Source: a virus. Taken from it: 64,000 nucleotides of DNA. This document shows, in pieces, positions 886 through 45,871 of this stretch. The stretch's first letter is position 1. Every line of letters starts with the position of its first letter. The notes under the pieces are model-generated. The model made no database searches and was not told where the DNA came from. It saw only the letters and a program-made list of their open reading frames with translations. Location of the stretch: positions 1 to 64,000 of the IMG/VR virus record IMGVR_UViG_3300030450_002944; one strand, written 5' to 3'. A program made the position numbers and the translations under genes.

Positions 886-891
886 TATAAT
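886..891 (+). promoter_or_regulatory. GTATAATA late-promoter candidate
   Basis: The hexamer TATAAT sits in GAGTATAATATATTATGG with no -35 match 16-19 bp upstream. The same 18-base string recurs at 33198-33215. The ATG of the next gene is 5 bp downstream, where a transcript would be expected to begin. Confidence 0.5.
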
Positions 892-896
892 ATATT

Positions 897-1526
897 ATGG
901 TAATGGATGAAGAATTTTCCCAAGAAGATCTGCTTGTAATGTTGCAAGAATTTGGGCAGGATGTATTTAATGAATCTCAAGCTAGATGTCCAGAAGACAC
1001 TGGATGGTTAAAGGAAAGCGGAGATATTATTATGAATGCAACTGGATTTGAAATAGTTTATAATGCTCCGCATGCAAGACTGATTCATGATGGGAAAGAA
1101 GCAGCCGAGCAGATTTATAAACAGAAAGTACAAAGGCATAGAAGAAGGAAGAGAGGAAGTACATCACCAGTTGCTTTAAATATTGATACTAAAGTTACTG
1201 GAGTAGGATCAGGAAATCCTAATAGAATGAAAAGACCTAGACAAGGTTCGTATAGTGATTTAAAAAAGATGGCGAATATAAAACGAAAATCTAATACAGT
1301 ATCAGTGAGAGCACATACTAAAACATATTATGGTCGTAGACCAATGTTAAATCCTAAAACAGGTGAGTGGAAAGTTGTAAATACAACTGCAAGACAACCC
1401 ACACCGTTTATTGATGATGCTTATAGAAAAGTATTGGCAAGTAGAAAGTATAGAGATCTTAGGAAGTTAGGTCTTCCTTCGAGTATGAAGAGGGGGAGAC
1501 AAGATGTTCTTAGAAGATTTTTATAA
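897..1526 (+). CDS. HK97 gp10-like head-tail/tail-completion protein
   Basis: A 209-residue protein. The N-terminal half carries the pattern typical of the HK97-gp10-like family: CPEDTGWLKES followed by IVYNAPHARLIHDG. The C-terminal part has QPTPFIDDAYRKV, like the family's conserved end. A strongly basic insert (QRHRRRKRGS) lies in the middle. Such proteins act in head-tail joining or tail completion. No Shine-Dalgarno is visible. The start lies 5 bp after a TATAAT, suggesting leaderless translation. Confidence 0.72.
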   Translation: MVMDEEFSQEDLLVMLQEFGQDVFNESQARCPEDTGWLKESGDIIMNATGFEIVYNAPHARLIHDGKEAAEQIYKQKVQRHRRRKRGSTSPVALNIDTKVTGVGSGNPNRMKRPRQGSYSDLKKMANIKRKSNTVSVRAHTKTYYGRRPMLNPKTGEWKVVNTTARQPTPFIDDAYRKVLASRKYRDLRKLGLPSSMKRGRQDVLRRFL

Positions 1527-1541
1527 ACAAAGGAGGAAACT

Positions 1542-1757
1542 ATGGTAGACATTAGTAAAGTTACAGCTGAACAAGAATATATTATCGCCAGACATTCTAG
1601 GATGGTTGGTAAGGTATTAGATTTAGTTGAAGCATCTATGCCAGAAGGTAATCAACTCGAAAAACTCAAGAAACTTATTCAAGTTCCCTTGTATGACTAT
1701 CGAAACGAGATGATTAAACTTAATTCTGGTGAACTTATTGAAGAAAATATCGAATAA
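1542..1757 (+). CDS. Small hypothetical virion-region protein
   Basis: A 71-residue helical-looking protein preceded by a strong AAAGGAGGAAAC and placed 15 bp after the gp10-like gene. It is rich in Glu, Lys and Leu and has no membrane segment. Position suggests a head assembly helper, but no family is recognised. Confidence 0.7.
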   Translation: MVDISKVTAEQEYIIARHSRMVGKVLDLVEASMPEGNQLEKLKKLIQVPLYDYRNEMIKLNSGELIEENIE

Positions 1758-1816
1758 TCTATACTTTTTATAGATAAAACTCGTAATATTTATGTAAAAA
1801 ATCCCTTTATTTATAG

Positions 1817-1822
1817 TATAAT
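1817..1822 (+). promoter_or_regulatory. GTATAATA late-promoter candidate of the capsid genes
   Basis: AGTATAATA lies 146 bp before the scaffold-like gene and has no -35 element. It probably drives scaffold, capsid and decoration genes. A perfect palindrome follows within 11 bp. Confidence 0.45.
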
Positions 1823-1832
1823 ATAACAGATG

Positions 1833-1967
1833 GGGTAATATTACCCTTTTTATATTATAATTTCATAAAGGTCGGGGGTGGCTTAGACCAACCTTTTGAG
1901 AATTAATAAACTTTTAGACACTTTTAGTCTGGAATGGACTGGAAAGGTGACATAGGAGGTCGTAAAT
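1833..1967 (+). promoter_or_regulatory. Structured leader of the capsid operon
   Basis: The perfect 14-base palindrome GGGTAATATTACCC (1833-1846) is followed by TTTTTA, then by further short inverted repeats (AAAGGT with ACCTTT near 1868-1895, AGAC with GTCT near 1916-1932). The leader ends with AGGAGGTCG before the scaffold-like gene. The palindrome plus T-run could also be a weak terminator of the upstream gene. Confidence 0.4.
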
Positions 1968-2798
1968 ATGTCAGAAGAATTCACACAATTAGAGAACCAC
2001 ATGCAAGGTACTAACCTTGCTTTATCTGCAGTAGCAGAAGTGCTCGCTAAGATGGACGAAAGACTTACAAAAGAAGAAGAGGATGATAGAATAGATGAGG
2101 AAGAGAAGGCTATACAAGCCGAAAAAGCAGACTTAGTAAAAGCAGTCGCATCAGAAGTCGTTTCAATGATAAAAGAGGATAACCCTCTTGGAATGGATGT
2201 CGATGGTAGTAAAGAAAGGAAAGCAAAGAGTTCAGCACCTTCACATGATGATGCTCAATCTGCCGCTAACCCGACTACTAAAATAGAAGATCAGCAAGCT
2301 GTTATTCAAGCTGCCGACATGGAAAGTGATGACGAGGAAGAAGAAAAGGCTGCCTACAAAGCAGCTGATGATGAAGACAATGGTTCTGATGAAGAGCCAG
2401 TTGACAAAGCTGCTGATGAAGAAGAAGATGATGTTGAGAAAGCAGAAGATGAAGACGAAAAAGACGATGACGGAATGAAAGCAATGAGGAAAGAACTTGA
2501 TGCTTTGAGGAAGACAGTCGCTGCTTATGAAGCAAACATGGAAAAAGCTATCGAAGAAGAGTCTGTTGGAAGACTACGAAAGATGGGCTTTAGAGAAGAG
2601 AATGGTTTGCAAAGACCAGCTCTTTTAAATAATGATGCACTAGGAACAGATGGAACTACTCCAATTGTAAAAAGTGCTGCAAGTGGTGATGTAGTAGATG
2701 ACTTAACTAGTTTGTCTTACAAACAATTAAGAGACCTACAACACAAAATAGACTCTGGAGACACTTCTGGTGTACCTAGGGAACTACTTGGCAATTAA
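1968..2798 (+). CDS. Capsid scaffold-like acidic protein
   Basis: A 276-residue, extremely acidic protein located directly before the major capsid gene. Residues about 30-200 are dominated by Glu, Asp and Lys (for example DDEEEEKAAYKAADDEDNG) and include predicted coiled coil (MRKELDALRKTVAAYEANMEKA). The C-terminus is shorter and less charged. High charge, low complexity and position match scaffolding proteins of HK97-type phages. There is no protease signature. The start has AGGAGGTCGTAAAT upstream. Confidence 0.6.
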   Translation: MSEEFTQLENHMQGTNLALSAVAEVLAKMDERLTKEEEDDRIDEEEKAIQAEKADLVKAVASEVVSMIKEDNPLGMDVDGSKERKAKSSAPSHDDAQSAANPTTKIEDQQAVIQAADMESDDEEEEKAAYKAADDEDNGSDEEPVDKAADEEEDDVEKAEDEDEKDDDGMKAMRKELDALRKTVAAYEANMEKAIEEESVGRLRKMGFREENGLQRPALLNNDALGTDGTTPIVKSAASGDVVDDLTSLSYKQLRDLQHKIDSGDTSGVPRELLGN

Positions 2799-2832
2799 TA
2801 AATTTTAGTAAAAGAACGAGGAGAAATTAATT

Positions 2833-4200
2833 ATGGCAACAAATCCATCATTATCTGAGTACGTTGCTCAGTCTCAAAGAGGTTTGTATTCTTCAGTATT
2901 CGGACCTGAATACTTACAGAAACAGACTTACTTTACAGTGGACACTGCTACAGGTATTTTTAATACTACCTATGGTAGAAAAGTTTGGCATTCATTAAAC
3001 AACCAAACTCGTTTCTTCAATGCTGTCCCAAGAACTGTTTGGGGTAACACAGCTGGTTGGAGGATAAGAACAGACAGAGGTTCAGGACGATCAAGACCTG
3101 TAACTGAAACTGGTTCACTTCCTACAGTTGACGTTTCTAACATTGAAAGCATTTCTAGTTTACCTAGAATTGTTTCAACTACTTTTGGTGCTTCAGTGAA
3201 GTCAGTCTTTACTGCACAGCTAGAAGGTGGTGTTGGTGATGTGTTAGCATTGGAAAACGAAAATGCACAACTTGACCACGTTAAAGAAATTAACGAAGAA
3301 CTAATGGCGGGATCTGGATACGTTGTATCTGCAGGTTCCTCAACTACTGGTACTGTACCAGCATCAGTAGCTAAAAACATAAAAATTGGAGACTCAGTTG
3401 CATACTGGGATACTTCTGCAAATGACTACATTGACTCATCTGGACTAGCAGTTTCAGCAGTAAACACATCTACGGGTGCTATTACTCACGCTACTGCATC
3501 AGCTACTATTGCTGACGGTGACGGTATGATCGTTGTAAAAAGAGCAGGACTAACTTCAATTGACGACATCGTTCAAGCTGACGGAGCTGTAGTAGGTGGG
3601 TCTTACGACTCTAACTCAAACTTCGCCGCAAACGGTGGTGTTAATGCTTATGACTTAACATTCGGAGCAAGGGCTGCAGGAAACTGGAACGCCGCTGCTA
3701 CAGTTAAGGATAACAACGGTGTAGGAAGAGACCTTTCTCTAAACCTACTTGATGACTGTATTCAGACAGTAAGAACTAATGGTGGAGAACCTAAACTAAT
3801 CGTTATGGGTCATGACCAATACTTCAAACTAGAAAGATTACTACAATCACAACAGAGATACTTAGGACAGGAAGAGTACCAAGTTGGTGTGGGTTCTGAA
3901 AGAACCTTCCCCGGAACTCGAACTGGACTAGTTCTTGCAACTTACCAAGGTATTCCAATCTTGCCAGATGCAGACACTCCAAAGGGTGTTAGCACAGCTG
4001 ACGCAGTATTGGGTTCAAACGTATATGTTTTGGACACAGACTATCTTGAAATAGCTGTGGCACAACCAACACAGTATATAGAAAACAGAGACTACTTTGC
4101 AGCTAACGCTCTAGTAGTAAGAGGATTACTATACACTATGGCAGAAATGCGATGTCACAACTTCTTCACACAAGCTAAGATTACAGACTTAAACGCGTAA
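2833..4200 (+). CDS. Major capsid protein
   Basis: A 455-residue protein behind GAGGAGAAATT, directly after the scaffold-like gene and before decoration proteins. The N-terminal part resembles the arm and E-loop region of HK97-fold capsids (FFNAVPRTVWGNTAGWRIRT). Residues about 165-235 form a Gly/Ser/Thr-rich insert that looks like an extra surface domain (GDSVAYWDTSANDYIDSSG). The C-terminal half (KLIVMGHDQYFKLERLLQ, then GIPILPDADTP and MAEMRCHNFF) matches capsid A-domain patterns. Codon use is more GC-rich than in nearby genes, as expected for a highly expressed gene. Confidence 0.85.
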   Translation: MATNPSLSEYVAQSQRGLYSSVFGPEYLQKQTYFTVDTATGIFNTTYGRKVWHSLNNQTRFFNAVPRTVWGNTAGWRIRTDRGSGRSRPVTETGSLPTVDVSNIESISSLPRIVSTTFGASVKSVFTAQLEGGVGDVLALENENAQLDHVKEINEELMAGSGYVVSAGSSTTGTVPASVAKNIKIGDSVAYWDTSANDYIDSSGLAVSAVNTSTGAITHATASATIADGDGMIVVKRAGLTSIDDIVQADGAVVGGSYDSNSNFAANGGVNAYDLTFGARAAGNWNAAATVKDNNGVGRDLSLNLLDDCIQTVRTNGGEPKLIVMGHDQYFKLERLLQSQQRYLGQEEYQVGVGSERTFPGTRTGLVLATYQGIPILPDADTPKGVSTADAVLGSNVYVLDTDYLEIAVAQPTQYIENRDYFAANALVVRGLLYTMAEMRCHNFFTQAKITDLNA

Positions 4201-4225
4201 TCTAAACTTGTAAAGAAAATTAATT

Positions 4226-4257
4226 AATGGGATGGGGGGCTAGTCTCCCCACCCATT
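4226..4257 (+). terminator. Hairpin after the capsid gene
   Basis: AATGGG pairs with CCCATT, and inside it GGGG pairs with CCCC, giving a strong GC-rich hairpin between the capsid and decoration genes. There is no T-run, so it may be an attenuator or mRNA-stabilising structure rather than a full terminator. Confidence 0.5.
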
Positions 4258-4282
4258 ATGCTAAACAAGGAGAAAATTAAAT

Positions 4283-5011
4283 ATGGCGAAACATTCATTT
4301 AAAATGTCCGATGTGACCGAAGACACTAGAGTTCTAGCTAGGTCTGCATTAGGATATGACTTTAACTATTTCGCTGATGATGAAACTATAATCTTCGGTA
4401 CAGATAGTGATGCTACACTTTCATGGGACGGTGATTCACTGAACGTAACATCATCTGCTACAGAAGTGTCAGGTACACTAGCAGTTGCAGGTGCAACTAG
4501 TCTAGGAACTACAGAAGCAGTGTCAGCTGGAACTGGTATCACTGGTGGTACTGGTACAGTTTACAAATCTTCAGTAGTAAAAATTGGTGGTTTATATGAA
4601 ACAACTATCTATATTGACCTAACTGGATTAAATTCCAATGTAGCTAACGATATTATTGGTAAAGATGCTACAGCTAACTGTCATATTGGACAGATAACTG
4701 CAGCTGTTAACGGTACTATCGTTGGTGGTTATATGCAATGTTTGGAAACACCTACAACTGGTGAACCAGATATTGACGTATGGTATGCTGACGAAGCTAC
4801 TGGTACAGAAGATGCAGCTATCTCTGGTTTATCTAACCAGACTGCTGTTCTAGCCGCTGGTGCGGACTGGACAGTTGCTGCAAACGTAAATATGAGACCT
4901 ATCACTGGAATGCCAGCTGCTGACAAGTATTTATACTTAACAGGTGGTGGAGGTACTACTGATGGTACTTATGATGCCGGTAAGTTTATAATTAAATTAT
5001 ACGGAACTTAA
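4283..5011 (+). CDS. Head decoration/structural protein
   Basis: A 242-residue protein with AAGGAGAAAATT upstream. Its residues 33-75 (DETIIFGTDSDATLSWDG onwards) resemble the beta-rich modules of phage fibres, and the remainder is a Gly/Thr/Ala-rich beta protein ending in KFIIKLYGT. Its place between the capsid gene and a second structural gene argues for a capsid decoration protein or head fibre. No named family can be assigned. Confidence 0.6.
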   Translation: MAKHSFKMSDVTEDTRVLARSALGYDFNYFADDETIIFGTDSDATLSWDGDSLNVTSSATEVSGTLAVAGATSLGTTEAVSAGTGITGGTGTVYKSSVVKIGGLYETTIYIDLTGLNSNVANDIIGKDATANCHIGQITAAVNGTIVGGYMQCLETPTTGEPDIDVWYADEATGTEDAAISGLSNQTAVLAAGADWTVAANVNMRPITGMPAADKYLYLTGGGGTTDGTYDAGKFIIKLYGT

Positions 5012-5032
5012 ACATTAGCGATTAGCAAAAAT

Positions 5033-5075
5033 CTACTAAAAGCTGCCTTGACTATATTGTCTTGGCAGCTAGTAG
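5033..5075 (+). terminator. Hairpin between structural genes
   Basis: CTACT...AGCTGCC pairs with GGCAGCT...AGTAG around an 18-base loop. The 7-bp GC-rich inner stem is strong, but only scattered T follow it. A partial terminator or RNA-processing structure is likely. Confidence 0.5.
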
Positions 5076-5107
5076 AAAATATTTTATATATAAAGGAGAG
5101 CGAATAA

Positions 5108-6157
5108 ATGGCAGGCTTTACAAATAGTTATGATAAATCATGGGAATGGAAAGAATGGAATACTGATCCTAGTACTCGTACTTCCGTAGCTCCCTATGAT
5201 AGATATGTACCCTTTAGTGGTACTGTAGGAACAAGTGCTGTTGATATCTTAAACATTCATGCAGGACCATATTATGAATTAGATCAAGGTGGTTCAGCAG
5301 GTACTACTGCAAGTTGGGAACTAGCTACTTCAGGTAGTCCCGGAATAAATCAAATAACAAACCCATCAATAGAGAATGCAACTATATCAGAATTTACAGC
5401 AGACGGTTCAGCAATTTCTAGAACCACTGGTGCACCTCATTTGGGTTCAGCAGAACTTACAGCAAACCCATCAAACTCAGCAGCTAAAGAAGGATTTTAT
5501 GTAACTACAACTTCTATTTCTGGAGGTGGGGCTGATTTAAATCAAAACACAGATAGATGGATAGTAGCTTCAGGAATGGTAAGAGGAGCATCAGCATCAG
5601 GAGATGCAGTAATGCAGATTACAGATTCAAGTGGAACTGCTCTAGTTACTGGAACTGCAGTTAGTTTAACTACAGCTTACCAAAGAGTAAGTGTAGCATA
5701 CAATATTCCATCAGGAACAACCCCTGCTACATACAGAGTTAAGTTCTGTTCAAGTACACAACATAATATTAATATGTTATGGGATTGTTTGATGTGGGAT
5801 GTTAGAAAAGATTCAAGTATTATCGATTATATAGATGGTAGCCTAGCAGGTGGAAATGGATATGAATGGGAAGGCACTGCAAACCTCTCAAGATCAAGAC
5901 ATCTCTCACCTATAGGAGTAATTAGAGGCATTAGTATTAGAAACACACACGCCTCTCAAGTATTATATGTAGCATTTGATTGTACTGCAGAAGCAAGTAC
6001 AGCAGCAATTAAGCTGACTGGTAACGATACCACAGAACATAATTGGTTCCATAGTACGCATCCATTAGACTTTAGGAAGAATGCATCTATCTATGGTAGT
6101 GCATCAAGTACTGGATATGAAGGCGTAATTTGGGGAACATCATTCCCAGTAGGATAA
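5108..6157 (+). CDS. Structural protein with carbohydrate-binding-like domain
   Basis: A 349-residue protein with AAAGGAGAGCG upstream. Residues about 78-240 begin ITNPSIENATI and contain WIVASGMVRG and YQRVSVAYNIPSGTTPATYRVKF, the pattern of jelly-roll carbohydrate-binding modules in phage surface proteins. The ends are beta-rich. It probably decorates the capsid and binds glycans. The binding role is inferred. Confidence 0.55.
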   Translation: MAGFTNSYDKSWEWKEWNTDPSTRTSVAPYDRYVPFSGTVGTSAVDILNIHAGPYYELDQGGSAGTTASWELATSGSPGINQITNPSIENATISEFTADGSAISRTTGAPHLGSAELTANPSNSAAKEGFYVTTTSISGGGADLNQNTDRWIVASGMVRGASASGDAVMQITDSSGTALVTGTAVSLTTAYQRVSVAYNIPSGTTPATYRVKFCSSTQHNINMLWDCLMWDVRKDSSIIDYIDGSLAGGNGYEWEGTANLSRSRHLSPIGVIRGISIRNTHASQVLYVAFDCTAEASTAAIKLTGNDTTEHNWFHSTHPLDFRKNASIYGSASSTGYEGVIWGTSFPVG

Positions 6158-6170
6158 GGAGACAACTGTC

Positions 6171-7448: not shown

Positions 7449-7456
7449 GAAGCGAG

Positions 7457-7947: not shown

Positions 7948-7978
7948 ATTTTTTATAAACTAATCAAGGAGATACACT

Positions 7979-8116: not shown

Positions 8117-8121
8117 ATTAT

Positions 8122-8158: not shown

Positions 8159-8163
8159 TATGG

Positions 8164-9551: not shown

Positions 9552-9693
9552 TTTAATGGAATATATGATACAGATTGCAGATCAGATCCGAGAACTACAG
9601 GAAGATGCAGATGGTAAGATGGAAGTCATATTAAAAGAGATTGCCCTAATTCAAATCAAATTACATGAATTAGATGAAAAGATTAATAAATAG
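9544..9693 (+). CDS. 49-residue coiled-coil protein
   Basis: The start at 9544 overlaps the preceding gene's last codons (ATGAGTAA). The product is a heptad-rich helix (IADQIRELQEDADG and LIQIKLHELDEKI). It may oligomerise. Unknown function. Confidence 0.5.
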   Translation: MSNLMEYMIQIADQIRELQEDADGKMEVILKEIALIQIKLHELDEKINK

Positions 9694-9695
9694 AG

Positions 9696-9701
9696 TATAA
9701 T
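9696..9701 (+). promoter_or_regulatory. GTATAATA late-promoter candidate
   Basis: GAGTATAATAGTAT lies 43 bp ahead of the gene at 9739 and has no -35. It is the only copy of this motif inside the early-type region. Confidence 0.35.
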
Positions 9702-9738
9702 AGTATATATGTATAAAACAAGAAAGTAGGTATAAAAT

Positions 9739-10317
9739 ATGGAAAGACACCCTGAAGATGAAAATGTTTCTAGTTCGACTTCTTTTCTACAAGAGGGAGA
9801 AAGTAAAATTATTTCATTAAATAAGAATGAATGTCTATTCTTAGATGATTGCTTTACAGTTATTATTGATGGTAGAGAAATGCAAGGATTGACAACATTA
9901 AGAAACATATCCTCTACTGCGAGTGTTCCTGTTACAGTTGATTTAATTCAGAAAATAGGTAGAGCAGTATTGTTTACTACTGATAGAAACAATGGTGGAA
10001 AAGAAGCATTAGTTGAAGTAGATGAAACAGACTTACTTGCATTAAGAGAAGTGGCTCAAAGTTATGTTAAGATGGAGGGAGAAGCAGTTGGAGTAAATTT
10101 AAAGAGGAAAATTCTATCTTTATTATTAGAGAACAGTTATGCACAAGAGGTTAAGAAGCAGAAAGATTATAGATATTGGTTAAGAACATTGAACCAAATT
10201 GCTCCTAGAAAGCATTTTGATCAACATGAATGGACTTACAATAGTAAAGAAAGTTATGATGAGATGTGGGAGAAACGAGCATCTAAGGAGAACAAAGGAG
10301 AAGATGGAAGTAAATAA
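9739..10317 (+). CDS. Hypothetical protein, 192 residues
   Basis: A 192-residue protein with a GTAGGTATAAAAT leader. Sequence features are KIISLNKNECLFLDDCFTV near the N-terminus and a basic C-terminal half with LKRKILSLLLENSYAQEVKKQKDYRYW. No catalytic motif is recognised. The gene overlaps the following small gene. Confidence 0.7.
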   Translation: MERHPEDENVSSSTSFLQEGESKIISLNKNECLFLDDCFTVIIDGREMQGLTTLRNISSTASVPVTVDLIQKIGRAVLFTTDRNNGGKEALVEVDETDLLALREVAQSYVKMEGEAVGVNLKRKILSLLLENSYAQEVKKQKDYRYWLRTLNQIAPRKHFDQHEWTYNSKESYDEMWEKRASKENKGEDGSK

Positions 10318-26654: not shown

Positions 26655-26716
26655 AGTTTTTTATATTCAAAAAACAAACTGAAGTAAGTATATTAAGATT
26701 ATGTATAATAAAATTT

Positions 26717-28686: not shown

Positions 28687-28845
28687 ATGAATAATAATAT
28701 AGAATTTAATGTTTTAGAGTATAGGATACAGAAAACTTTAGATAACAGATTACCAAATGATACTATGTTTGATTATCTTGGTGTAGTAGAAGATGCTAGA
28801 TATGAAGATTTTTATGATGGCTATAATTTAATAGAACGTGGATAA
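28687..28845 (+). CDS. 52-residue acidic protein
   Basis: AAGAAAGAGAAT precedes the ATG. Acidic, helical, with YRIQKTLDNRLPNDTMFDYLG and a Tyr-rich end. Unknown function. Confidence 0.6.
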   Translation: MNNNIEFNVLEYRIQKTLDNRLPNDTMFDYLGVVEDARYEDFYDGYNLIERG

Positions 28846-28859
28846 TATGTATTTAGCTG

Positions 28860-28865
28860 TATAAT
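28860..28865 (+). promoter_or_regulatory. GTATAATA late-promoter candidate
   Basis: CTGTATAATAGTATATGG: the ATG of the next gene is 5 bp after TATAAT; no -35. Confidence 0.5.
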
Positions 28866-28870
28866 AGTAT

Positions 28871-29086
28871 ATGGTTAGGGGAACATTAATTCTGTTTTTA
28901 ATAAGTGTCTGTGTATTATCATTACCAGACGTAATAAACTTGCAGCGACATTCAGATGATTTTATACAAATGGGATGGAGTCGTATAAAACGTGATATAT
29001 TTCGTGAGTCGCCTGCGGCTCCTCAAAAATATGTGGGGTTGCCGCCGCCCATCGAAAGAACTATATCTGGTGATAGGAAATTCTGA
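28871..29086 (+). CDS. Small secreted or membrane-tethered protein
   Basis: A 71-residue product with a signal-peptide-like start (MVRGTLILFLISVCVLSLP) and a basic, Pro-rich rest (SPAAPQKYVGLPPPIER). This layout is common for outer-membrane spanin subunits and small exported phage proteins; the Cys is not in a good lipobox. No ribosome-binding site is seen and the ATG is 5 bp after TATAAT. Confidence 0.5.
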   Translation: MVRGTLILFLISVCVLSLPDVINLQRHSDDFIQMGWSRIKRDIFRESPAAPQKYVGLPPPIERTISGDRKF

Positions 29087-29095
29087 AAAAGGGAG

Positions 29096-29101
29096 TATAA
29101 T
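29096..29101 (+). promoter_or_regulatory. GTATAATA late-promoter candidate
   Basis: GGGAGTATAATAGTACATG: the SNase-like gene begins 5 bp after TATAAT; no -35. Confidence 0.5.
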
Positions 29102-29106
29102 AGTAC

Positions 29107-29529
29107 ATGTATACATATAAATGCACAGTTACAAAAGTAATAGATGGAGACACTATTGATGTTGATATCCAATTAGGGTTTAATGTTATTCTATATAAAC
29201 AAAGAATAAGATTACATGGGATAGACACGCCAGAATCTAGAACTAGGAATTTGGAAGAAAAGGCTAGAGGATTACTTTCAAAAGATTTTATGAAGAAATT
29301 GGCTCCTGTCGGATCTTCCATTACTTTAAAGTCCTTAGAAAAAGGAAAATTTGGTAGGATATTAGGTATTATTTGGCAAGAAGGGGATGAATGGGAAACT
29401 GATTCTCCAATAAACGACTTAATGATTGAAAACTATCATGCAGTTCCATATACTGGACAAAACAAGAACGATGTAGAATCTTTACATGAAGCTAATAAAC
29501 TCAAGCTAATTGAAAAGGGAATCTTGTAA
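29107..29529 (+). CDS. Staphylococcal-nuclease-like (thermonuclease) protein
   Basis: A 140-residue protein with the SNase pattern: VTKVIDGDTIDVDI near residue 9, RIRLHGIDTPESR near residue 37 (Arg and Asp/Glu of the active site) and EKGKFGRILG near residue 79. The length equals a single catalytic domain with no signal peptide. SNase-like enzymes cut DNA and RNA with calcium; in phages they may degrade host DNA. The position at the head of virion genes is notable. Confidence 0.85.
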   Translation: MYTYKCTVTKVIDGDTIDVDIQLGFNVILYKQRIRLHGIDTPESRTRNLEEKARGLLSKDFMKKLAPVGSSITLKSLEKGKFGRILGIIWQEGDEWETDSPINDLMIENYHAVPYTGQNKNDVESLHEANKLKLIEKGIL

Positions 29530-29530
29530 A

Positions 29531-32500
29531 ATGCCAGACATTGATGCAATGACAGAAAAGTTAATGAAGGATCCTGATTTTCAGGCTAAGATAGGTAAAA
29601 CTAAGCGTGAAACTGCTCAAGAAGAGGCTACTCAAAGAGCACATCAACATAGAAAAAATTCTATGGCATTAGCATTAGGTAATGAGAGTAAGACTGCTGT
29701 AGAACATTTAAGTGAATATGCTAAATTAGAGGCTCAACGAAAAGAGATTGATGAAATGGTTTTCGGTGTTCCTACTGAAGAAATTCGAGATAAGATGGCA
29801 CGTCCTCTCAATGTGGTTGATATAGACATAAATGATCTTACTTTGAGTCCACCACCAGCTAATACAAGTACTCAGGTTAAAGAAGAATTAGAGACCATCA
29901 TTGATAAACATCTTCAAACAAAAGAAGATACAGATAATTTTGAATTTGAGATTGCAAAGCCTGCTGAAATACAAGATTTAGATATTTTAAAATCTTTCAT
30001 TAAATTAGCTGAAGAATTGGGACTTAGTGATGATATTACTAAAAAGAAATTAGAAGTAATAAAAGATGATTCTGCTACTATTGTTTTAAATCTAAAATAT
30101 TATTTCAATAGACCTAGACCTGAACAATTAATGGACTATCATGGAGTAGATTTTAAACCTGCAGATTTCAAAACTTCTGATACTCCTGCTTATCCATCTG
30201 GACATGCCTTTCAAGGTACATTAATTGCATTGATTTTATCTGAAGTGTTTCCACAACATGCAGATTCGTTTATGAAACTTGGTGAATCTATTGGTGAGAA
30301 TAGAGTAATTTTCGGTGTTCATTATCCTTCAGACCACGCCGCTGGTATAGAATTAGCAAAACAGGTTTTTCCTTATGTAAATTTTGAGAAATTAGATTTT
30401 AAACCCATTCCACAGGAATCCCAACCTTTAGAAAAAGACTTACCTAATATAGAAAAAGCTACAGGTATAGAAATTGCAGCTACAGGAGCAGCTCTAGCAT
30501 CTGGAGGAATAGCATTATGGGATTTATATCAAGCTTTTAAGAAAAATAAAAAATTAAAGCAGGAAGATAAAGTAGAATTAAACGAAGCTTTAGAGGAAAA
30601 TGAAGATAGTTTAAAAGAAACAAAAATTGATATAAAAGAAGATGAATTACCAGATTTAGAAAATGCTGATAATGTAGATGAATTAATAAGTGGTGTAAAA
30701 AATCCAGACAAAGCTGAACCAATTATTGAGAAAGTTAGGAAAAAAAGATGGGATTCTGGACTAAGTAAAGAAGACGCAGCTAAAATTAGAGCTGAACGTG
30801 AGGCTAAAAGAAAGGATGCTGCTACTCCTTTACCTAAAATTGGAGAAGGTGTAGAAGAACCAAAAGGTGAAGAACCTAAAAAAGTAGACGCTGAAAAGAA
30901 AGAGTCTGAACAAGTAGAGGAGAAGAAAGAGCCTCGAAAAATTCCTTTAGATATCCATAGTAAAAAAACTCTTATTGATAACATTGGTAAATTAGTAAAT
31001 CATATTCCTACTCATAGAGGAAAAAATGATAGTGATACTTCTAGAGGAAAATTTAATGCTTCTCAAATAAATCCAGATACATCATCTTTAGATCCTGTAG
31101 TACATCAATCATTTGAAAATTGGAGTACCCGAAACCCAGAAGATTTACATGATCATTTAAATTCCCTATCTGAAGAGAAATTAAGAGCTATAGCTTCAGC
31201 GTTAGGAGAACAAGCTAACCAAGTCGCTCCGGGTAGTGAATTGAATCCAGTAGGTTCATCAACAAGATTAGGTATTTTAGGTAGAATGCTTAGAGACGAT
31301 AAATCAGGTAAAAAAGAAATAGAAGGTGTATCTAATAAGGATTACCAAACAGCTTTAAGAGATTCTTTAAGTAGAGCTGTAAATTCTAATCACGATATAA
31401 CAGTTCCGGGTGGTGAAGAAGAAATTGTAGAAGCTGCTAATGAGAATTTAGAAGAAGAAACAAGACCTTCACCTGAAGAAGAGGCTAGAAGAAAATATGA
31501 AGCGGAACAAAAAGCAAAACGAGATGCTGAAGAGGCAGATAAAAAAGAAGAGGAATCTAAAGATAAAAAAACAGGGGGTCCTTCTCCTTTTGCAGTAGAA
31601 GAAGAGAGTAAACCAATTAATTTAGATGAAGCTGATTTAGGTAAGATTAAACTTGGTGACTCTAAAGAACTTACTAATTTAAATGGTTATCTATCAGATG
31701 CTAAATATGGTGGAATAAAAGGTCAAGAATTTACTAATGAAGATGGTACAGTAAAATCAAGATACATGCATGGTTTACAAGAATATATTAAAAAGAATCC
31801 TACTTCAGCTAAAATTGGTACTGATGGTTCAGTAGAGTTTGATCCTGAATACATAGGTAATTTAACAAAACACTTCTCAGAAAACCATGATGATGCTGCT
31901 ATGAGTAGATTATGGGAGAAAAACTATAGACATAAAGGAGCAAGTGATACATCTTCTATTGGATATGGTGATTATTCTCCATCAAAAGAAGCAAGAGGGG
32001 CTATACTTTCTAGAAAAGAAAAAATGGATAAAGTTATGGAACAACAATTTGGAGAAGATTGGGAAGATTCTAATGACTTTGATGTGAGAGCTGAAAGAGA
32101 ACATCTTCAATCAATGGATTCAAAAACATTTAATAAACATTTTGATACTGCATATTTAAAACCATTGAGATCTCAGAGACAAAAAGATAGGACTGCAGGT
32201 ATAAAAGCAGAGACCCCCAAAGATCCTAATAAAGAACGATGGAATTTAAAGGATTCTAGTCCTGATGAAGCCTATGAAAAAGCTAAAGAAATGATAGCTC
32301 ATTCACTTGAACATAGTGAAGAACATGGTGGAAAAGGTTTAGACGAAAAGACTGTTTCTCATATGAATAAACAACTATCAGCTGCTCGTAAAGCAATGGG
32401 AGCTGATAATATTAAAAAACTTAACCAAGAAATCAAAGATGGTAGTATCCAACCTACTAAAGCTGAAGAGCCTAAAGAGGATAAAGATTACGAAGGATCA

Positions 32501-33205
32501 GATATTCCAGATGAAGCAAGAGGATATGGAGATGCTCCTGAAGGTGTTAAGACATATAAAGGACCATCAGGTGGAGTATTTTATGATAAGAGGGAAGCAA
32601 AAAAGAAAGATAGTGAAGGTGGGGGTGACGGAACATCTGATTCTGGTGATACGGGAGACTCAGGTGAAAAAATGCCTCCACCATCTATACCAGAAGATTC
32701 TAAAATATCTTCAGATGAACCTGTTGGAGATAAAGCATCTGCATGGGGAGATAAAATCGGATCTGCTGTAAGTGCTTTAGGTAGACTTACTGGAAAAGCA
32801 GGTAAAGAAGATAGAAAAAAATTAATAGCTGATGCGGCTAAGACATTTAAAGAAGCTGGTAAAGCAGTTGGAAAAGAAGGTAAAAGAGCTTTTAATGAAA
32901 TTGGATCAGCAATGGCTGAAGAAATAGCTAGATCTAGAGGTTATGGTGAGGCTCAAGCCAAAAATGCTAAACTTAAATATCAATTACAAGCTGCTGCCAG
33001 AGGTATTCCAATAGCAGGTAAAATAATTCCTAAAACTGAAGGATATAAAGGAGAATCAAAGGCTGGAGTCAGAGGGGCAAAACAAGAAACAAGAGCTAAA
33101 GAACAAGCAGCTTATGAGAAATTAACCTATGGAGACAAAGTAGATTTTGAAGTTTCTAAGAGTAATTTAAAAAAACTACAGGATTTTACTAAAAATAGAG
33201 TATAA
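29531..33205 (+). CDS. Large virion protein with PAP2-type phosphatase domain
   Basis: Start at ATG 29531, since no ribosome-binding site supports the TTG at 29510; 1224 residues. Residues 189-268 hold a complete PAP2/class A acid phosphatase signature: K189-x6-R196-P197, then PSGH (222-225), then R258-x5-H264-x3-D268. The remainder is charged and coiled-coil-rich, with YKGPSGGVFYDKRE (about 1015), a motif seen in phage minor head proteins. Lys/Ala-rich C-terminal part. Probably virion-internal or neck protein. The enzymatic substrate is unknown. Confidence 0.7.
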   Translation: MPDIDAMTEKLMKDPDFQAKIGKTKRETAQEEATQRAHQHRKNSMALALGNESKTAVEHLSEYAKLEAQRKEIDEMVFGVPTEEIRDKMARPLNVVDIDINDLTLSPPPANTSTQVKEELETIIDKHLQTKEDTDNFEFEIAKPAEIQDLDILKSFIKLAEELGLSDDITKKKLEVIKDDSATIVLNLKYYFNRPRPEQLMDYHGVDFKPADFKTSDTPAYPSGHAFQGTLIALILSEVFPQHADSFMKLGESIGENRVIFGVHYPSDHAAGIELAKQVFPYVNFEKLDFKPIPQESQPLEKDLPNIEKATGIEIAATGAALASGGIALWDLYQAFKKNKKLKQEDKVELNEALEENEDSLKETKIDIKEDELPDLENADNVDELISGVKNPDKAEPIIEKVRKKRWDSGLSKEDAAKIRAEREAKRKDAATPLPKIGEGVEEPKGEEPKKVDAEKKESEQVEEKKEPRKIPLDIHSKKTLIDNIGKLVNHIPTHRGKNDSDTSRGKFNASQINPDTSSLDPVVHQSFENWSTRNPEDLHDHLNSLSEEKLRAIASALGEQANQVAPGSELNPVGSSTRLGILGRMLRDDKSGKKEIEGVSNKDYQTALRDSLSRAVNSNHDITVPGGEEEIVEAANENLEEETRPSPEEEARRKYEAEQKAKRDAEEADKKEEESKDKKTGGPSPFAVEEESKPINLDEADLGKIKLGDSKELTNLNGYLSDAKYGGIKGQEFTNEDGTVKSRYMHGLQEYIKKNPTSAKIGTDGSVEFDPEYIGNLTKHFSENHDDAAMSRLWEKNYRHKGASDTSSIGYGDYSPSKEARGAILSRKEKMDKVMEQQFGEDWEDSNDFDVRAEREHLQSMDSKTFNKHFDTAYLKPLRSQRQKDRTAGIKAETPKDPNKERWNLKDSSPDEAYEKAKEMIAHSLEHSEEHGGKGLDEKTVSHMNKQLSAARKAMGADNIKKLNQEIKDGSIQPTKAEEPKEDKDYEGSDIPDEARGYGDAPEGVKTYKGPSGGVFYDKREAKKKDSEGGGDGTSDSGDTGDSGEKMPPPSIPEDSKISSDEPVGDKASAWGDKIGSAVSALGRLTGKAGKEDRKKLIADAAKTFKEAGKAVGKEGKRAFNEIGSAMAEEIARSRGYGEAQAKNAKLKYQLQAAARGIPIAGKIIPKTEGYKGESKAGVRGAKQETRAKEQAAYEKLTYGDKVDFEVSKSNLKKLQDFTKNRV

Positions 33206-33206
33206 T
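33201..33206 (+). promoter_or_regulatory. GTATAATA late-promoter candidate
   Basis: GAGTATAATATATTATGG, the same 18 bases as at 883-900, overlapping the previous stop; ATG 5 bp after TATAAT. Confidence 0.5.
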
Positions 33207-33211
33207 ATATT

Positions 33212-34834
33212 ATGGACATACTAAAACGGTTAGCAAAACTTACATTAAAAAAGGCTCAGAGGGTTAGAGACCCTTGGGCTGTCGCTACGTCTATGACTGA
33301 AGGTAACAATAAGAAGAATAATCCGGGTGGTACTCCAAAAGGAGCTATTGTTGAAGGTATAAAAAGAAATGAATGGAACTCACCAGAAGGTTTAGATGGA
33401 GCAATGGAGCGACATGGGGAACATCATGGAACAAGTTCAGAACGAAAAAAAGGACACTCTTACGATAGAGACTATAAAGAGGGTCAGAAGTATGATTCAT
33501 CTAAAAGAAATACAGATGCTGTAACCCCAGAAGAAAAAAAGAAGACTAAAGAAGAATATGCAGCTAGAAAACCTGTAACTGAAACAGAGATGAGTCAAGA
33601 AACTGCTTTAAGAGAGGCAGTAGATTCAATAAAAGACGAATTAAAGACCAGTCAAAAAGATAGAACCTTCGTATATTCTCAAATTAGAGATGCTTTAGCT
33701 AAAATTACTGGTGATAGTAAAGCAGAAACTGATAAAGATATTAAAGATAAACTTACTCCTGAAGAACAGGAGAAAATTAAAGATGAACCTCCTATAAAAG
33801 ATGTAGTCGAAAAGGTCCCAGAACCGAAAGAAGGAGACACTATATCAAAAATAAATTCAAAGGTTAATGAAGGTAATATTAACCAAATACGACAACAGGT
33901 TGAATCGGAAGTAAAAAGTGTTTTATCAGTTAAAAGAGAAGGTAAAAAACCTGATATTGCAGATGCTAAAAATAAAGTACAAAATGCTCTTGATGCATAC
34001 AGTAGTAAAGCAACTGATTTATCAGTTGGATATGGGGGTGAATCCGAGGTTAAAGATGCTGCCAAGAAAATAGATTCTGCTTTAAAAGACTTAAATAATT
34101 TCAAAGTTGAAAAATCTACATCATCTTCTAGAAGATTACTTAATATATTAAAAGAAACAACTACTGTAAATAATGACCAACTTGAAAAAGATCTTATATC
34201 AGCTCTAAGTCAAGCAATGAAAAAACATTCAGATGGATTTAAAGTACCTACTGGTAACAATGAAATTTTAAAAAATATTAGAAAACAATATGTTAAAAAA
34301 GGTATAGGAAGTGCTTTACTAGCTATGCTAGCAGGGTATGCTCTAACACCTAAAGTAAGTTCGGGTGAGATGACACCAGCTCAACAAAGACAATGGGAGA
34401 GAACTCTCGCAAATCAAATGAGAAAAAAGAATATAGACATCGACTCGGACACATTTAAAGCCCTACAAAATTTCTATAAAGATCAATCAGATACTTATAC
34501 TAGAAAAAAACCAGCTAAAAATGGTGTAAATATTGAAAAGATATTAACTTCTCCACCATTTCAAGGAGCAGAATTTGATCCAACTTCTCACAGATGGAAG
34601 AAAGCTGGACAAGTTTCAGCTCAAACTGGACAAGTAAATGTTGGAACTGGTGGTAAAAGAAGAATTAGAGGAGCTGGAACAGGAGCTGCTCAAAGATCTG
34701 TAGGTGGACATAAACGAGGAATAGTAAGAGAAGCAAGAAGAGGAATTGGAGCAAGAGCTGCTAGAAGAAAATCTGATATTAAAAGTAGGTCTTCTAGAAT
34801 TAAAGCGTATAAAAAATTAACACGAAAGAAATAG
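33212..34834 (+). CDS. Virion protein with basic C-terminus
   Basis: A 540-residue protein. The N-terminal third is polar and rich in Lys, Gly and Glu; the middle is coiled coil; near residue 368 a short hydrophobic segment (GSALLAMLAGYAL) occurs. The last 70 residues are arginine-rich (KRGIVREARRGIGARAARRKS), fit for DNA binding. No ribosome-binding site; start 5 bp after TATAAT. Probably packaged with DNA or at the neck. No named family. Confidence 0.6.
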   Translation: MDILKRLAKLTLKKAQRVRDPWAVATSMTEGNNKKNNPGGTPKGAIVEGIKRNEWNSPEGLDGAMERHGEHHGTSSERKKGHSYDRDYKEGQKYDSSKRNTDAVTPEEKKKTKEEYAARKPVTETEMSQETALREAVDSIKDELKTSQKDRTFVYSQIRDALAKITGDSKAETDKDIKDKLTPEEQEKIKDEPPIKDVVEKVPEPKEGDTISKINSKVNEGNINQIRQQVESEVKSVLSVKREGKKPDIADAKNKVQNALDAYSSKATDLSVGYGGESEVKDAAKKIDSALKDLNNFKVEKSTSSSRRLLNILKETTTVNNDQLEKDLISALSQAMKKHSDGFKVPTGNNEILKNIRKQYVKKGIGSALLAMLAGYALTPKVSSGEMTPAQQRQWERTLANQMRKKNIDIDSDTFKALQNFYKDQSDTYTRKKPAKNGVNIEKILTSPPFQGAEFDPTSHRWKKAGQVSAQTGQVNVGTGGKRRIRGAGTGAAQRSVGGHKRGIVREARRGIGARAARRKSDIKSRSSRIKAYKKLTRKK

Positions 34835-36344: not shown

Positions 36345-36354
36345 GGAGTAAAAT

Positions 36355-40025: not shown

Positions 40026-40042
40026 TAGCATAAGGAGAACTT

Positions 40043-42331: not shown

Positions 42332-42335
42332 AATT

Positions 42336-42626
42336 ATGATTTATTTTTATGGACAACAAATAACTGAATATACACACAGTGATGCAAAAAGATTTAAACT
42401 TACAGGGTATCCGGGTGACATCTATAAAGCAGTAGATAATGCTGATTATGGTGGTGGCGTAGAACATTGTACAGAGTGGGTAAATAAATATAGTTATACA
42501 ATTAAAACAAAAGCAGAAGCACAAGAACTAGTAAATGCTGGTATAATAGAAGAGAATAATAAATATAGCAATGATGCCTTAATAGGTGGAGAGAAACCAG
42601 TACAAGGAGAGATAACACTTGAATAA
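42336..42626 (+). CDS. Fibre-associated small protein
   Basis: A 96-residue acidic protein starting 5 bp after the adhesin gene. TIKTKAEAQELVNAGIIEENN suggests a small alpha-beta domain. The site next to fibre genes would suit a tail-fibre assembly helper. Not recognised. Confidence 0.55.
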   Translation: MIYFYGQQITEYTHSDAKRFKLTGYPGDIYKAVDNADYGGGVEHCTEWVNKYSYTIKTKAEAQELVNAGIIEENNKYSNDALIGGEKPVQGEITLE

Positions 42627-43263
42627 TTTTCCAATGTTAAAAAAAGAAGATAATAACTTCTTAAAAGAATTAAAAAAAGAATTAGAAGCAACACATAATA
42701 AAGTACAGATATACAGAACTGAAACAGAAATGCGATATTCTGTTTTAAATGATGCTAGCTTTCCTACAAAAGCCAGTAAATATTGGCAATGTGTTAGAGA
42801 ACAAGATGTTTTTTATACTAATTTAAGAGAAGAATCTTATGCATATAGAAAACTTTTAGTTGAAATACAAAAAATAGAAAGAGCAATAAAAAACGAACAG
42901 GATGATTTAGAGATAGAATTACTGGAAATAGGACTTGAACAAAAATTATGGGAAAAAGAAGAAAGAGAAAGAATGGGTAAAGATAGAGTAAGAGAAATAG
43001 AACATTGGTCTAGGCTTAAAAAAGAACTAGATGATGGTTCATTCGATACAAAAAATGTTAATGTACATCAAAAAGAATCATTAAAGCTACAGTTACAAGA
43101 GAGAGCAAAAAACTTAACACCGGGCAGTTCTCAAGGGGAAGCATTAAATGTAATAGGTCCTCTTAAAACAATAGACCCAGAGTTTAGAAACCAACTTGAA
43201 GCACAAGAGAGGATAGCTCTTGAGGCAAACAAAAGGCAGGCATTAAATGGCAAAAATAATTAG
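42619..43263 (+). CDS. Coiled-coil structural-region protein
   Basis: TTG start 8 bp after AAGGAGA, overlapping the previous gene; an ATG at 42634 is the alternative. The 215-residue product is a charged helical protein with coiled coil at residues 70-130 (KLLVEIQKIERAIKNEQDDL). Unknown role. Confidence 0.6.
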   Translation: MNNFPMLKKEDNNFLKELKKELEATHNKVQIYRTETEMRYSVLNDASFPTKASKYWQCVREQDVFYTNLREESYAYRKLLVEIQKIERAIKNEQDDLEIELLEIGLEQKLWEKEERERMGKDRVREIEHWSRLKKELDDGSFDTKNVNVHQKESLKLQLQERAKNLTPGSSQGEALNVIGPLKTIDPEFRNQLEAQERIALEANKRQALNGKNN

Positions 43264-43555
43264 AAGAAAGTCTGATAATAAGGTATTTTACTGTTTAGAT
43301 AATGCAGAAACTGCTGACCTTACATCTACAGTATTTAATTTTACACTAGATAATGGTGGAAGAACATTAACAGCATTAGACATAAACTCATCTACACACG
43401 AACTACTAACTGGTATTACACCACCCACAACATTTACTGGAAGTGGCGTTTTTACTTATGATGGAAGTTCATGGACAATAGATACTGACTTGTTAAATAA
43501 GATTAATGCAGGTAGAACAATACACGATAGCCCTAATATAGTAGCAGAAGTTTAA
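43247..43555 (+). CDS. Small beta-rich structural protein
   Basis: A 102-residue protein overlapping the preceding gene. The pattern RRKSDNKVFYCLDNAETADL then GSGVFTYDGSSWTID is typical of phage tail-fibre accessory proteins (YDGSxW). Role unknown. Confidence 0.55.
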   Translation: MAKIIRRKSDNKVFYCLDNAETADLTSTVFNFTLDNGGRTLTALDINSSTHELLTGITPPTTFTGSGVFTYDGSSWTIDTDLLNKINAGRTIHDSPNIVAEV

Positions 43556-43595
43556 ATATTTAGTGGAAAAAAGTCGTAAATCTATAGAAAATTAG

Positions 43596-43601
43596 TATAA
43601 T
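43596..43601 (+). promoter_or_regulatory. GTATAATA late-promoter candidate
   Basis: TAGTATAATAGTAAG, 12 bp before the -35 of a sigma-70 promoter, so the next operon may have both promoter types. Confidence 0.4.
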
Positions 43602-43613
43602 AGTAAGAGAGGG

Positions 43614-43643
43614 TTGACTTAGGTATAAGGATTATGATATAAT
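43614..43643 (+). promoter_or_regulatory. Sigma-70 promoter
   Basis: TTGACT, 18-bp spacer ending TTATGA, TATAAT. Confidence 0.85.
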
Positions 43644-43664
43644 TACTTATAGGGAGGTCTACTA

Positions 43665-44021
43665 ATGAAGACATTATATAGTAAATGGACTAAAGAAGAG
43701 TATAAGGTTGCAGAAGTAACTTATAAAACACACTTCAAAAGAACTAAGACAGTTGAAGCGAAAATACGGAGATATGAAAAAAGTCATATCCCTTATTTTT
43801 TAACTACAAATGCTTTAGAAAATGAGAAGGTGCAATGGACAACTAAAAATTTTACCTATGAAGGTATGGATGAAAGAGTTTTTGATAAAGAAGAAGAACT
43901 TTTTATAGATAGTGCAGGTTGGGTAATACAAAAAGGTAAACTTTTAAGATATAATAATGGGAAATCAATCCATATAAAGAATTTACTGCCTGAATTATGG
44001 GCAACAAAGAATAGAAAATAG
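43665..44021 (+). CDS. Basic hypothetical protein, 118 residues
   Basis: AGGGAGGTCTACTA precedes the ATG. Lys-rich mixed protein with RRYEKSHIPYFLTTNAL and WVIQKGKLLRYNNGKSIH. It begins a new transcription unit inside the late region. Unknown function. Confidence 0.65.
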   Translation: MKTLYSKWTKEEYKVAEVTYKTHFKRTKTVEAKIRRYEKSHIPYFLTTNALENEKVQWTTKNFTYEGMDERVFDKEEELFIDSAGWVIQKGKLLRYNNGKSIHIKNLLPELWATKNRK

Positions 44022-44032
44022 GAGGACATAAT

Positions 44033-44287
44033 ATGTCAGAGACTAATGAAGTTAAAGAGATAGATATAACTAATGATCTAGGTTTACTAGAAAAAGAAAT
44101 AGGGAATATTTCTGAACAACTTAGACAAGTAGATGAGAATAGAATGCAACTAATAACTAAGTTACAACAAATACAGGGAGCGGCTGCTTATTTAAGAGGC
44201 AAACAAGACCCAACACCTGAAGAAAATGTAGCAGCAGTATTGGATGAAGAAGAAAAGTCTGAGGAGGAATCAACAGATAATAAATAA
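44033..44287 (+). CDS. Small coiled-coil protein
   Basis: AGGAGGACATAAT precedes the ATG. An 84-residue protein with one coiled coil (LEKEIGNISEQLRQVDENRM, then LQQIQGAAAYLRG) and an acidic tail. Such proteins are frequent before head-tail genes; the role is unknown. Confidence 0.65.
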   Translation: MSETNEVKEIDITNDLGLLEKEIGNISEQLRQVDENRMQLITKLQQIQGAAAYLRGKQDPTPEENVAAVLDEEEKSEEESTDNK

Positions 44288-44299
44288 TAGGAGGGTTAA

Positions 44300-45418
44300 A
44301 TGCCATCTACTGTAGAACAATATTTTGACATCGTAGAAGTTTATGATGGTAGTTCATTTACAGATAGGACATTAGAAGCACAGTCACCAGCTGGTACTGC
44401 ATTTTCCGTATTAGCAGGCACTGATGACTTTTTATATTTAGGAGATGCGTCTAAATTTGATATGGCTTTGTTTGATATAGACACAGCTGGTAGTCTAGGC
44501 ACGCTTAAATATGAATACTATAATGGTTCTGCATGGAAGGAATTTATACCTTTGTCTGGAACATATCAACATGATCCTGATGATAACGAATATACTGCTT
44601 ATGGATTTGATGAAGATGGAGCTGAAACATTTCCAGTAAATAGGTTAGGTAATTGGGCTGAAGTAGCTATTGATGGTGAATCAGCTTTTTGGATTAGGAT
44701 TAGTAGCCCAACTTCTGTATCAACTGCACCCACTATAAAGAGTATTAGAAAACGTGGAGTACAAGCATATTGTACAACAGCAGATGTATTTCAATTATTA
44801 CAACTAGGAAATGTAATAGGGGGAGATAACTTTACCTCATCTACAACACCTAGTCTAGCTACAGTAGAAAATTTTATTCATGAAGCTCAATCTAAAATAG
44901 ATTATTACACAAGAAAATCTTGGAGACCTAATATAGTTTATAATGAATATCATGAATTTAATCTTAATGGATTTAAATTAGACAGATTAGATCCATACAA
45001 AGTAATAAAAGTTCAAATATGGAATGGTGGAAACTGGGATAGTAAAAGTCCCGGAAGAAAAAGTGATTTCTTCCTAATTCCAAATACAGGAATGGTACAA
45101 TTTTCTAGATATTTCTTACTTCCTGCAAGATTCACATCTTACAATGCTCCAGTTTGGAGATGGGGAGGTGGAGAATTCACAATGCCTGTTAAGGTAACTT
45201 ATTTATATGGTCGAGATTTAACAACAGACGGTAGAGATGGACCTCTAATTACAGATGTATGTAAAAAATTAGCAGCTATTGATGTACTTAGAGACGCTGA
45301 TTTTGGTGGTGTAACAGTGAGTGGTATGGATAGAGTACAATTATCTCAAAAAATTGATGGTTGGACTGCTGAAACACTAGAAATTATGGATTCTCTCCGA
45401 TCATTTGAGGTATTTTAA
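44300..45418 (+). CDS. Head-tail adaptor fused to a beta-rich surface domain
   Basis: A 372-residue protein with TAGGAGGGTTAA upstream. Residues 155-372 resemble a head-tail connector: CTTADVFQLLQLGN, then VENFIHEAQSKIDYYTRKSW, which is the helix pattern of gp6-like adaptors, and a C-terminal helical part (DVCKKLAAIDVLRDADFG). The first 150 residues (YDGSSFTDRTL, LKYEYYNGSAWKEF) form a beta domain like those of virion surface proteins. Precedes the tail terminator gene. Confidence 0.65.
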   Translation: MPSTVEQYFDIVEVYDGSSFTDRTLEAQSPAGTAFSVLAGTDDFLYLGDASKFDMALFDIDTAGSLGTLKYEYYNGSAWKEFIPLSGTYQHDPDDNEYTAYGFDEDGAETFPVNRLGNWAEVAIDGESAFWIRISSPTSVSTAPTIKSIRKRGVQAYCTTADVFQLLQLGNVIGGDNFTSSTTPSLATVENFIHEAQSKIDYYTRKSWRPNIVYNEYHEFNLNGFKLDRLDPYKVIKVQIWNGGNWDSKSPGRKSDFFLIPNTGMVQFSRYFLLPARFTSYNAPVWRWGGGEFTMPVKVTYLYGRDLTTDGRDGPLITDVCKKLAAIDVLRDADFGGVTVSGMDRVQLSQKIDGWTAETLEIMDSLRSFEVF

Positions 45419-45855
45419 TGGCTAATGAACCAATGCCAGCTAAAGAATTTACTGATGAATTAAATTCACAATGGAATGCAAGTAATGTTACTGAACCTAA
45501 TTATATTGTGGTTACAGGGGCAAGCGAACAACTAAGATATGATCTTAATAAAGGAGATTATATTATTGCTGGTCCCGGAAGTCCTGAAATTCAAGAAATT
45601 CCTATTGGAAACCATAAATATGGGGATAGAATTTATGCTGTAGATTTAGAATTATATACTAATGATAGTCGTCAAAGACTATATAATTTAATGCAAGAGG
45701 TAAGACGAATATGTCATGCTAGACGACATAGTTTAACTAATTTTCAGAGGGTAACCTTTGAGAGTTTTTCTGAAGATATGGACGAAAACGTCAATGTTTG
45801 GAGCGGTACTATTGGAATTGAGTTAGAAAATAGCTCTGTTTTGTTGGAAACTTAA
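45418..45855 (+). CDS. Tail terminator/neck protein
   Basis: A 145-residue protein whose ATG overlaps the adaptor's stop. Alpha-beta pattern with GDYIIAGPGSPEIQEIPIGNHKYGDRIYAVDLELYTND, and LMQEVRRICHARRHSL. Its size and place between adaptor and tail tube match tail terminators. Confidence 0.6.
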   Translation: MANEPMPAKEFTDELNSQWNASNVTEPNYIVVTGASEQLRYDLNKGDYIIAGPGSPEIQEIPIGNHKYGDRIYAVDLELYTNDSRQRLYNLMQEVRRICHARRHSLTNFQRVTFESFSEDMDENVNVWSGTIGIELENSSVLLET

Positions 45856-45865
45856 GTAATTCTAG

Positions 45866-45871
45866 TATAAT
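45866..45871 (+). promoter_or_regulatory. GTATAATA late-promoter candidate of the tail operon
   Basis: CTAGTATAATATATATGAGGAG. A transcript starting about 7 bp later would keep the GAGGAG ribosome-binding site of the tail-tube gene. Confidence 0.45.

Follow-up and report, generated by a model that had tools for sequence, protein, structure and literature searches.

Does a marine phage whose DNA is known from metagenomes use two classes of promoter, and does a sigma factor of its own read the second? The question arises from a stretch of 64,000 nucleotides (nt), here called the window, which comprises positions 1 to 64,000 of the IMG/VR virus record IMGVR_UViG_3300030450_002944. That record is 81,307 bases long in full, and the promoter analysis was extended to all of it. 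A sequence-only reading of the window had pointed to eight copies of the motif GTATAATA, taken as -10 elements of late promoters, and to a sigma factor gene at 56250-56774. Our results support a model with two promoter classes in which a phage sigma-H-like factor probably reads late promoters that carry the box GTARRAWWTT.

A second, two-part promoter class

The window holds 14 matches to GTATAATA, 11 on the + strand and 3 on the - strand, versus 6.4 +/- 2.5 expected from dinucleotide shuffles, one of 100 of which scored as high. The excess over shuffled sequence, the check that the sequence-only reading had set for itself, is therefore present, but by count alone it is modest, about twofold. 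All eight copies that it listed exist, with the G of each standing one base earlier than given, at 885, 1816, 9695, 28859, 29095, 33200, 43595 and 45865. The list was selective in that it omitted the + strand copies at 26703, 42541 and 57218. The copy at 57218 was excluded as host-type, since it forms the -10 in a standard TTGACA-18-TATAAT promoter (57195), and the copies at 42541 (inside a gene), 69692 and 70916 were excluded as lying in coding DNA and being conserved for coding reasons. Two more late-type sites, 78178 and 80876, lie in the record outside the listed eight.

The eight sites had been described as lacking any -35. This is correct for TTGACA, the best match to which is 2-4 of six letters, as at random positions, but it is wrong overall. 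A second box, GTARRAWWTT (best form GTAGGATTTT), which differs from the host-type TTGACW, stands at fixed spacing before the -10, as RRAWW-N15-TATAAT, in dozens of related marine phage contigs. The late-type sites are thus a real second promoter class and not a -10-only one. At first, spacers of two lengths (15 and 18 nt) were considered; this was dropped because the longer box fits most sites at one register, with site 78178 fitting best with one extra nt. From the sequence alone, the GGAAA stretches at 885 and 78178 were also considered as possible terminator-like inverted repeats.

The relatives were collected by scanning IMG/VR with the sigma gene (47 relatives, including the colinear 82-kb record G001 and the 49-kb record G002) and with the major capsid protein (376 relatives, 80 kept). 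In the promoters of the capsid operon (15 non-redundant ones) and of orthologues of the open reading frame (ORF) at 897 (17 promoters), the box occupies an identical position and is followed by TAGTATAATA. When orthologous sites were aligned, both promoter elements proved to be retained, and conserved blocks were seen upstream of the -10, namely TGTTGGAAA before 45865, GTGATAGGAAATTCT before 29095, ACTACAGGATTTT before 33200 and GTAAATCT before 43595.

A weight matrix was trained on the relatives only and then applied to the window's record. Because the training loci were chosen by the presence of GTATAATA, their -10 was fixed by selection, while the -35 formed no part of it. With the -35 part of the matrix alone, nine of the ten promoter sites fall within the top 0.03-5% of all positions and 28859 at 12%; copies of GTATAATA in coding or host-type contexts score at 21-56% of positions. 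The eight sites without orthologues in the training set have a mean score of +2.6 at the expected spacing and of -3.1 or less if the spacing is shifted by one to six nt, and in 200,000 random draws no group of eight positions, nor of eight other TATAAT sites, reached such a score. With both matrix parts, a score of 16 finds five sites on the + strand and none on the - strand (mean in dinucleotide shuffles, 0.14). An independent set of loci, selected for a leader hairpin of the capsid operon and irrespective of the promoter, gave the same picture: of 26 new non-redundant loci, 18 have a best promoter score of at least 14, as against 0 of 61 control regions, GTATAAT is present in 25 of the 26, and their consensus reads TAGGATTTTT-N10-TAGTATAATA.

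The twofold over-representation of GTATAATA and its coding copies would also fit chance matches in AT-rich DNA, an explanation that we regard as highly improbable, given that the two-part motif, its exact spacing, the strand bias, the conservation and the independent locus set refute it for the class. Taken singly, 28859 may still be a chance match, and 26703 and 42541 probably are.

A phage sigma factor resembling sigma-H

The gene at 56250-56774 (+ strand) encodes a sigma factor of 174 amino acids (aa), and domain profile matches bear out the two regions originally ascribed to it. Region 2 matches Pfam Sigma70_r2 with 46.8 bits (cut-off 24), and the sigma-70 family model TIGR02937 matches residues 5-159 with 65.2 bits (cut-off 42.9), reaching into the helix-turn-helix of region 4, for which an AlphaFold model places helices at 125-135, 140-147 and 151-167 with a pLDDT of about 80. 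C-terminal conservation among the relatives is weak.

Three comparisons put the protein nearest to sigma-H. In NCBIfam, sporulation sigma-H models rank first among the named sigma families and span regions 2 and 4; in a PDB profile comparison, the best solved relative of the sigma family profile is sigma-H, 3mzy; and a Foldseek search with the AlphaFold model gave one match below 0.001, 9a4r (titled RPSH-RPOB), which we take to be sigma-H of B. subtilis. The overall TM-score of that match is 0.40, a low value, as would be expected of a protein with two loosely linked domains.

The promoters point the same way. The sigma-H consensus has the -35 RNAGGAWWW and the -10 RNNGAATWW (PMC8510167), and the phage -35, GTARRAWWTT or GTAGGATTTT, fits the former. 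The distance from AGGA to the -10 is 19-20 nt in the phage promoters versus 20-21 nt between AGGA and GAAT in the listed C. difficile SigH promoters (PMC7438776). Since the sigma is nearest to sigma-H and the box fits the sigma-H consensus, the class of the encoded sigma agrees with the class of the -35. Together with the two-part motif and its conservation, this match lends good support to the earlier proposal that a second promoter class is probably read by the phage's own sigma.

Several observations pull in the other direction. The score to the sigma-H model TIGR02859 is 36.1 bits, far below the curated cut-off of 294.8, and because of this the protein is better regarded as sigma-H-like than as SigH. 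The AlphaFold model is of moderate quality (mean pLDDT 72, pTM 0.43). The phage -10 is the Pribnow-like GTATAATA and not RNNGAATWW, which would make the promoter a hybrid of a sigma-H-like -35 and a Pribnow-like -10; GTAT within TAGTATAATA can be aligned to the sigma-H GAAT, the spacing then being 1-2 nt shorter. Finally, the promoter at 28859, the least certain site, is weak and is not conserved in G001. The phage factor also differs from the sigma-H (Spo0H/SigH) of Bacillus and Clostridioides in being phage-borne and in apparently serving virion genes.

The perfect Pribnow box invites a different explanation in which the host primary sigma reads GTATAATA and a phage activator binds the box at the -35 place, as at the MotA box of T4 middle promoters; spacing alone cannot separate sigma region 4 from an activator at about -30. 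We consider this unlikely, since the box is of the sigma-H -35 type and the sigma of the phage is itself sigma-H-like and possesses region 4, and since a constant G precedes TATAAT even in unselected loci, although a primary-sigma -10 needs no such G.

Host-type promoters, the probable host and the probable switch

The remaining promoters had all been credited with TTGAC and an 18-bp spacer. This describes 26 strict promoters in the record (TTGACW-18-TATAAT), 23 of which have TG at the extended -10 place, but a few candidates have 16- or 19-bp spacers. Most lie on both strands among the small genes of an early region at 8233-28627. Another, TTGACT-18-TATAAT with an extended -10 (55742-55771, + strand), precedes an Hsp20-like gene (55828-56250, + strand; phrog_432, 4.6e-17) and the sigma gene. 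As the Hsp20-like gene and the sigma start codon share one base, the two genes are probably translated together. Most of the closer relatives have a similar promoter before the sigma gene, and none was found in those more distant; overall, 17 of 37 carry it. The host-type promoter in front of hsp20-sigma suggests an early-to-late cascade in which this promoter would yield the sigma and the sigma would then serve the late promoters.

A gene for a BMP-family lipoprotein (record positions 78219-79367; L003:15219-16364) lies behind a late-type promoter. Its product shares 71% identity with a marine Dehalococcoidia protein, with best matches mostly in SAR202 and marine Chloroflexi genomes. It is probably a host-derived auxiliary gene and, because of these matches, the host is probably a SAR202-type Chloroflexota, an assignment drawn from one gene.

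A host alternative sigma, of sigma-H or extracytoplasmic function (ECF) type, might instead read the late promoters while the phage sigma acts elsewhere. Host genomes could encode such factors, and the metagenome-assembled genomes searched are incomplete. In ten SAR202-type genomes (the host itself being a predicted one), the profile of the phage sigma family gave region-2 matches at most, in long, RpoD-sized frames. In addition, the sigma gene is retained throughout the phage clade, as judged from the capsid-bearing records (8 of 20, including 6 of 6 above 31 kb), making such a host factor a very unlikely reader of these promoters.

Promoter position and probable leaderless genes

The sequence-only description of the late promoters overlooked that, at ORFs 897, 28871, 29107 and 33212, the ATG stands exactly 5 nt past TATAAT with no Shine-Dalgarno (SD) sequence, which puts the -10 about 10-12 nt before the ATG. 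Among 46 non-redundant promoter-ORF pairs from the window and its relatives, 15 have exactly this 5-nt distance; three of the 15 were flagged for an SD-like string, which in each case lies upstream of the -10 and outside the expected mRNA. Pairs with a distance of at least 16 nt have an SD in 23 of 26 cases. What weakens the pattern is that the 15 cases are mostly ORF 897 orthologues, and the number of independent gene families is therefore three, with 28871 as a weak fourth.

For the C. difficile SigH promoters as listed (PMC7438776), we took the final base as the transcription start; it is mostly 9-10 nt past the T of GAAT. Aligning GTAT to GAAT makes the first base of the ATG nt 9, so that the start would coincide with the AUG. 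The transcripts of the four genes are probably leaderless and would start at or next to the A of the ATG. Leaderless genes have been described with a TANNNT/TAtaaT box about 12 nt upstream of the start codon, the TAtaaT form occurring in Chloroflexi (PMC3160421). The phage genes share with them a nearly equal distance from -10 to ATG and the lack of an SD, and differ in that they belong to a phage and lie behind promoters of a class that has a -35 of its own. We found no report of phage late mRNAs that are leaderless and depend on a phage sigma, nor of a SAR202 phage with such promoters, in a literature search that mostly did not extend to subscription papers and is therefore weak evidence of absence in both cases.

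A model for transcription and its known parallels

In our model, the early genes and the hsp20-sigma operon would be transcribed from the host-type promoters (TTGACW-18-TATAAT, in most cases with an extended -10), which cluster at 8.2-28.6 kb. RNA polymerase would then be directed by the phage sigma to about ten late promoters (RRAWW-N15-TATAAT, with TAGTATAATA) for head, tail and some other genes; their late timing is suggested by the virion genes downstream. At four genes the start point would fall on or beside the A of the ATG, giving leaderless mRNAs, while the others would have a leader with an SD.

T4 late promoters (TATAAATA, read with gp55) have no -35, and gp55 lacks region 4. They had been offered as a known parallel and do have in common a sigma from the phage and a -10 that is conserved ahead of late genes; they are not the closest one, because here the sigma has region 4 and the promoters have a matching -35, conserved at fixed spacing. 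In SPO1-type cascades (gp28, gp33/gp34), early genes have host-type promoters and later genes are read by a phage sigma with its own two-part promoters. The layout proposed here is similar, with a different sigma and different promoter sequences, and in a phage for which no related isolate was found: Megablast against isolated phages gave no match, and the terminase and sigma proteins had remote matches only. The system is best described as sigma-H-like, phage-encoded late transcription, a new form of phage sigma cascade, with probable leaderless mRNAs at several genes.

More broadly, and as a proposal that we see as evenly balanced, these may be phages of an undescribed marine clade, probably infecting SAR202-type Chloroflexota, that combine a sigma-H-derived sigma, a hybrid promoter the placement of which chooses between leaderless and SD-leader modes, and a structured capsid leader. 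Both promoter classes and the probable switch protein would provide a readable regulatory code for a clade that has no close sequenced isolate but is represented by numerous marine metagenome contigs (one scan gave 376 capsid relatives). The candidate sigma-promoter pair can be tested in vitro without culture of phage or host, and promoter position would be tied to leaderless translation inside one regulon.

Individual late-type promoters and their genes

The late-type sites were said to stand nearly all before virion genes. Those at 885 and 1816 (head) and at 33200, 43595 and 45865 (tail region) do so, while the genes behind 9695, 28859 and 29095 are not clearly virion genes. All features in this section lie on the + strand, and percentages give the share of positions that reach the -35 score.

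The promoter at 863-892 (-35 box 863-872, GTATAATA 885-892; 0.03%) precedes a 209-aa ORF (897-1526) with a weak match to minor head or neck proteins; the promoter has orthologues in G001, G002 and 17 non-redundant relatives. The capsid-operon promoter (1794-1823; 0.19%), kept in relatives, is followed at 1968-4200 by a 276-aa ORF and the major capsid protein (2833-4200), with PHROG and NCBIfam capsid matches. The promoter at 9673-9702 (5%), kept in G002, has a 37-nt leader region before a 192-aa ORF of unknown function at 9739. A weak promoter at 28837-28866 (12%) precedes the 71-aa ORF 28871, also of unknown function, and that at 29073-29102 (0.1%) an ORF for an SNase-like nuclease (29107-29529). 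The promoter at 33178-33207 (4%) belongs to ORF 33212-34834, for which a scan of the viral collection found no relatives. The promoters at 29095 and 33200 are both kept in G001, with an unchanged distance to the ATG.

Before ORF 43665, the late-type promoter at 43573-43602 (3.4%) has a host-type promoter directly behind it (43614-43643). Both are retained in G001, and this tandem arrangement suggests that ORF 43665 is likely expressed both early and late. The promoter at 45843-45872 (0.3%) has CTGTTGGAAA and TAGTATAATA conserved and is followed by a leader with an SD and by gene 45892, which is tail-tube-like (Phage_tube_2) and was found at five loci only in a scan of the viral collection.

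A structured leader of the capsid operon

The capsid-operon leader contains a conserved hairpin (1866-1897, + strand) with a covarying outer stem and an invariant core, GTCGG..TGGCTNAGACCAAC. In its alignment, 44 cells are changed on both sides, versus 15 +/- 3 in shuffles, and 95.6% of cells are paired, versus 22-56% in slid versions. An Rfam search with the hairpin gave no match. The core occurs in at least 120 IMG/VR stretches; in those examined, the hairpin lies 30-61 nt past the -10, with a capsid gene downstream in 56 of 68. Control of capsid translation is our likeliest guess as to its role. Separately, many relatives have an inverted repeat (AACGTTTAAATATAACGTT or similar) directly past the -10 of the capsid promoter (window 1824-1860), possibly an operator or an RNA stem.

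Two further genes stand out. A 1231-aa ORF at 29510-33205 carries a PAP2 phosphatase domain, which is unusual for a phage late region, and L003:10902-14291 encodes a protein of 1129 aa that, judged by eye, is an apparent fusion of a tRNA-nucleotidyltransferase-like front with other domains.

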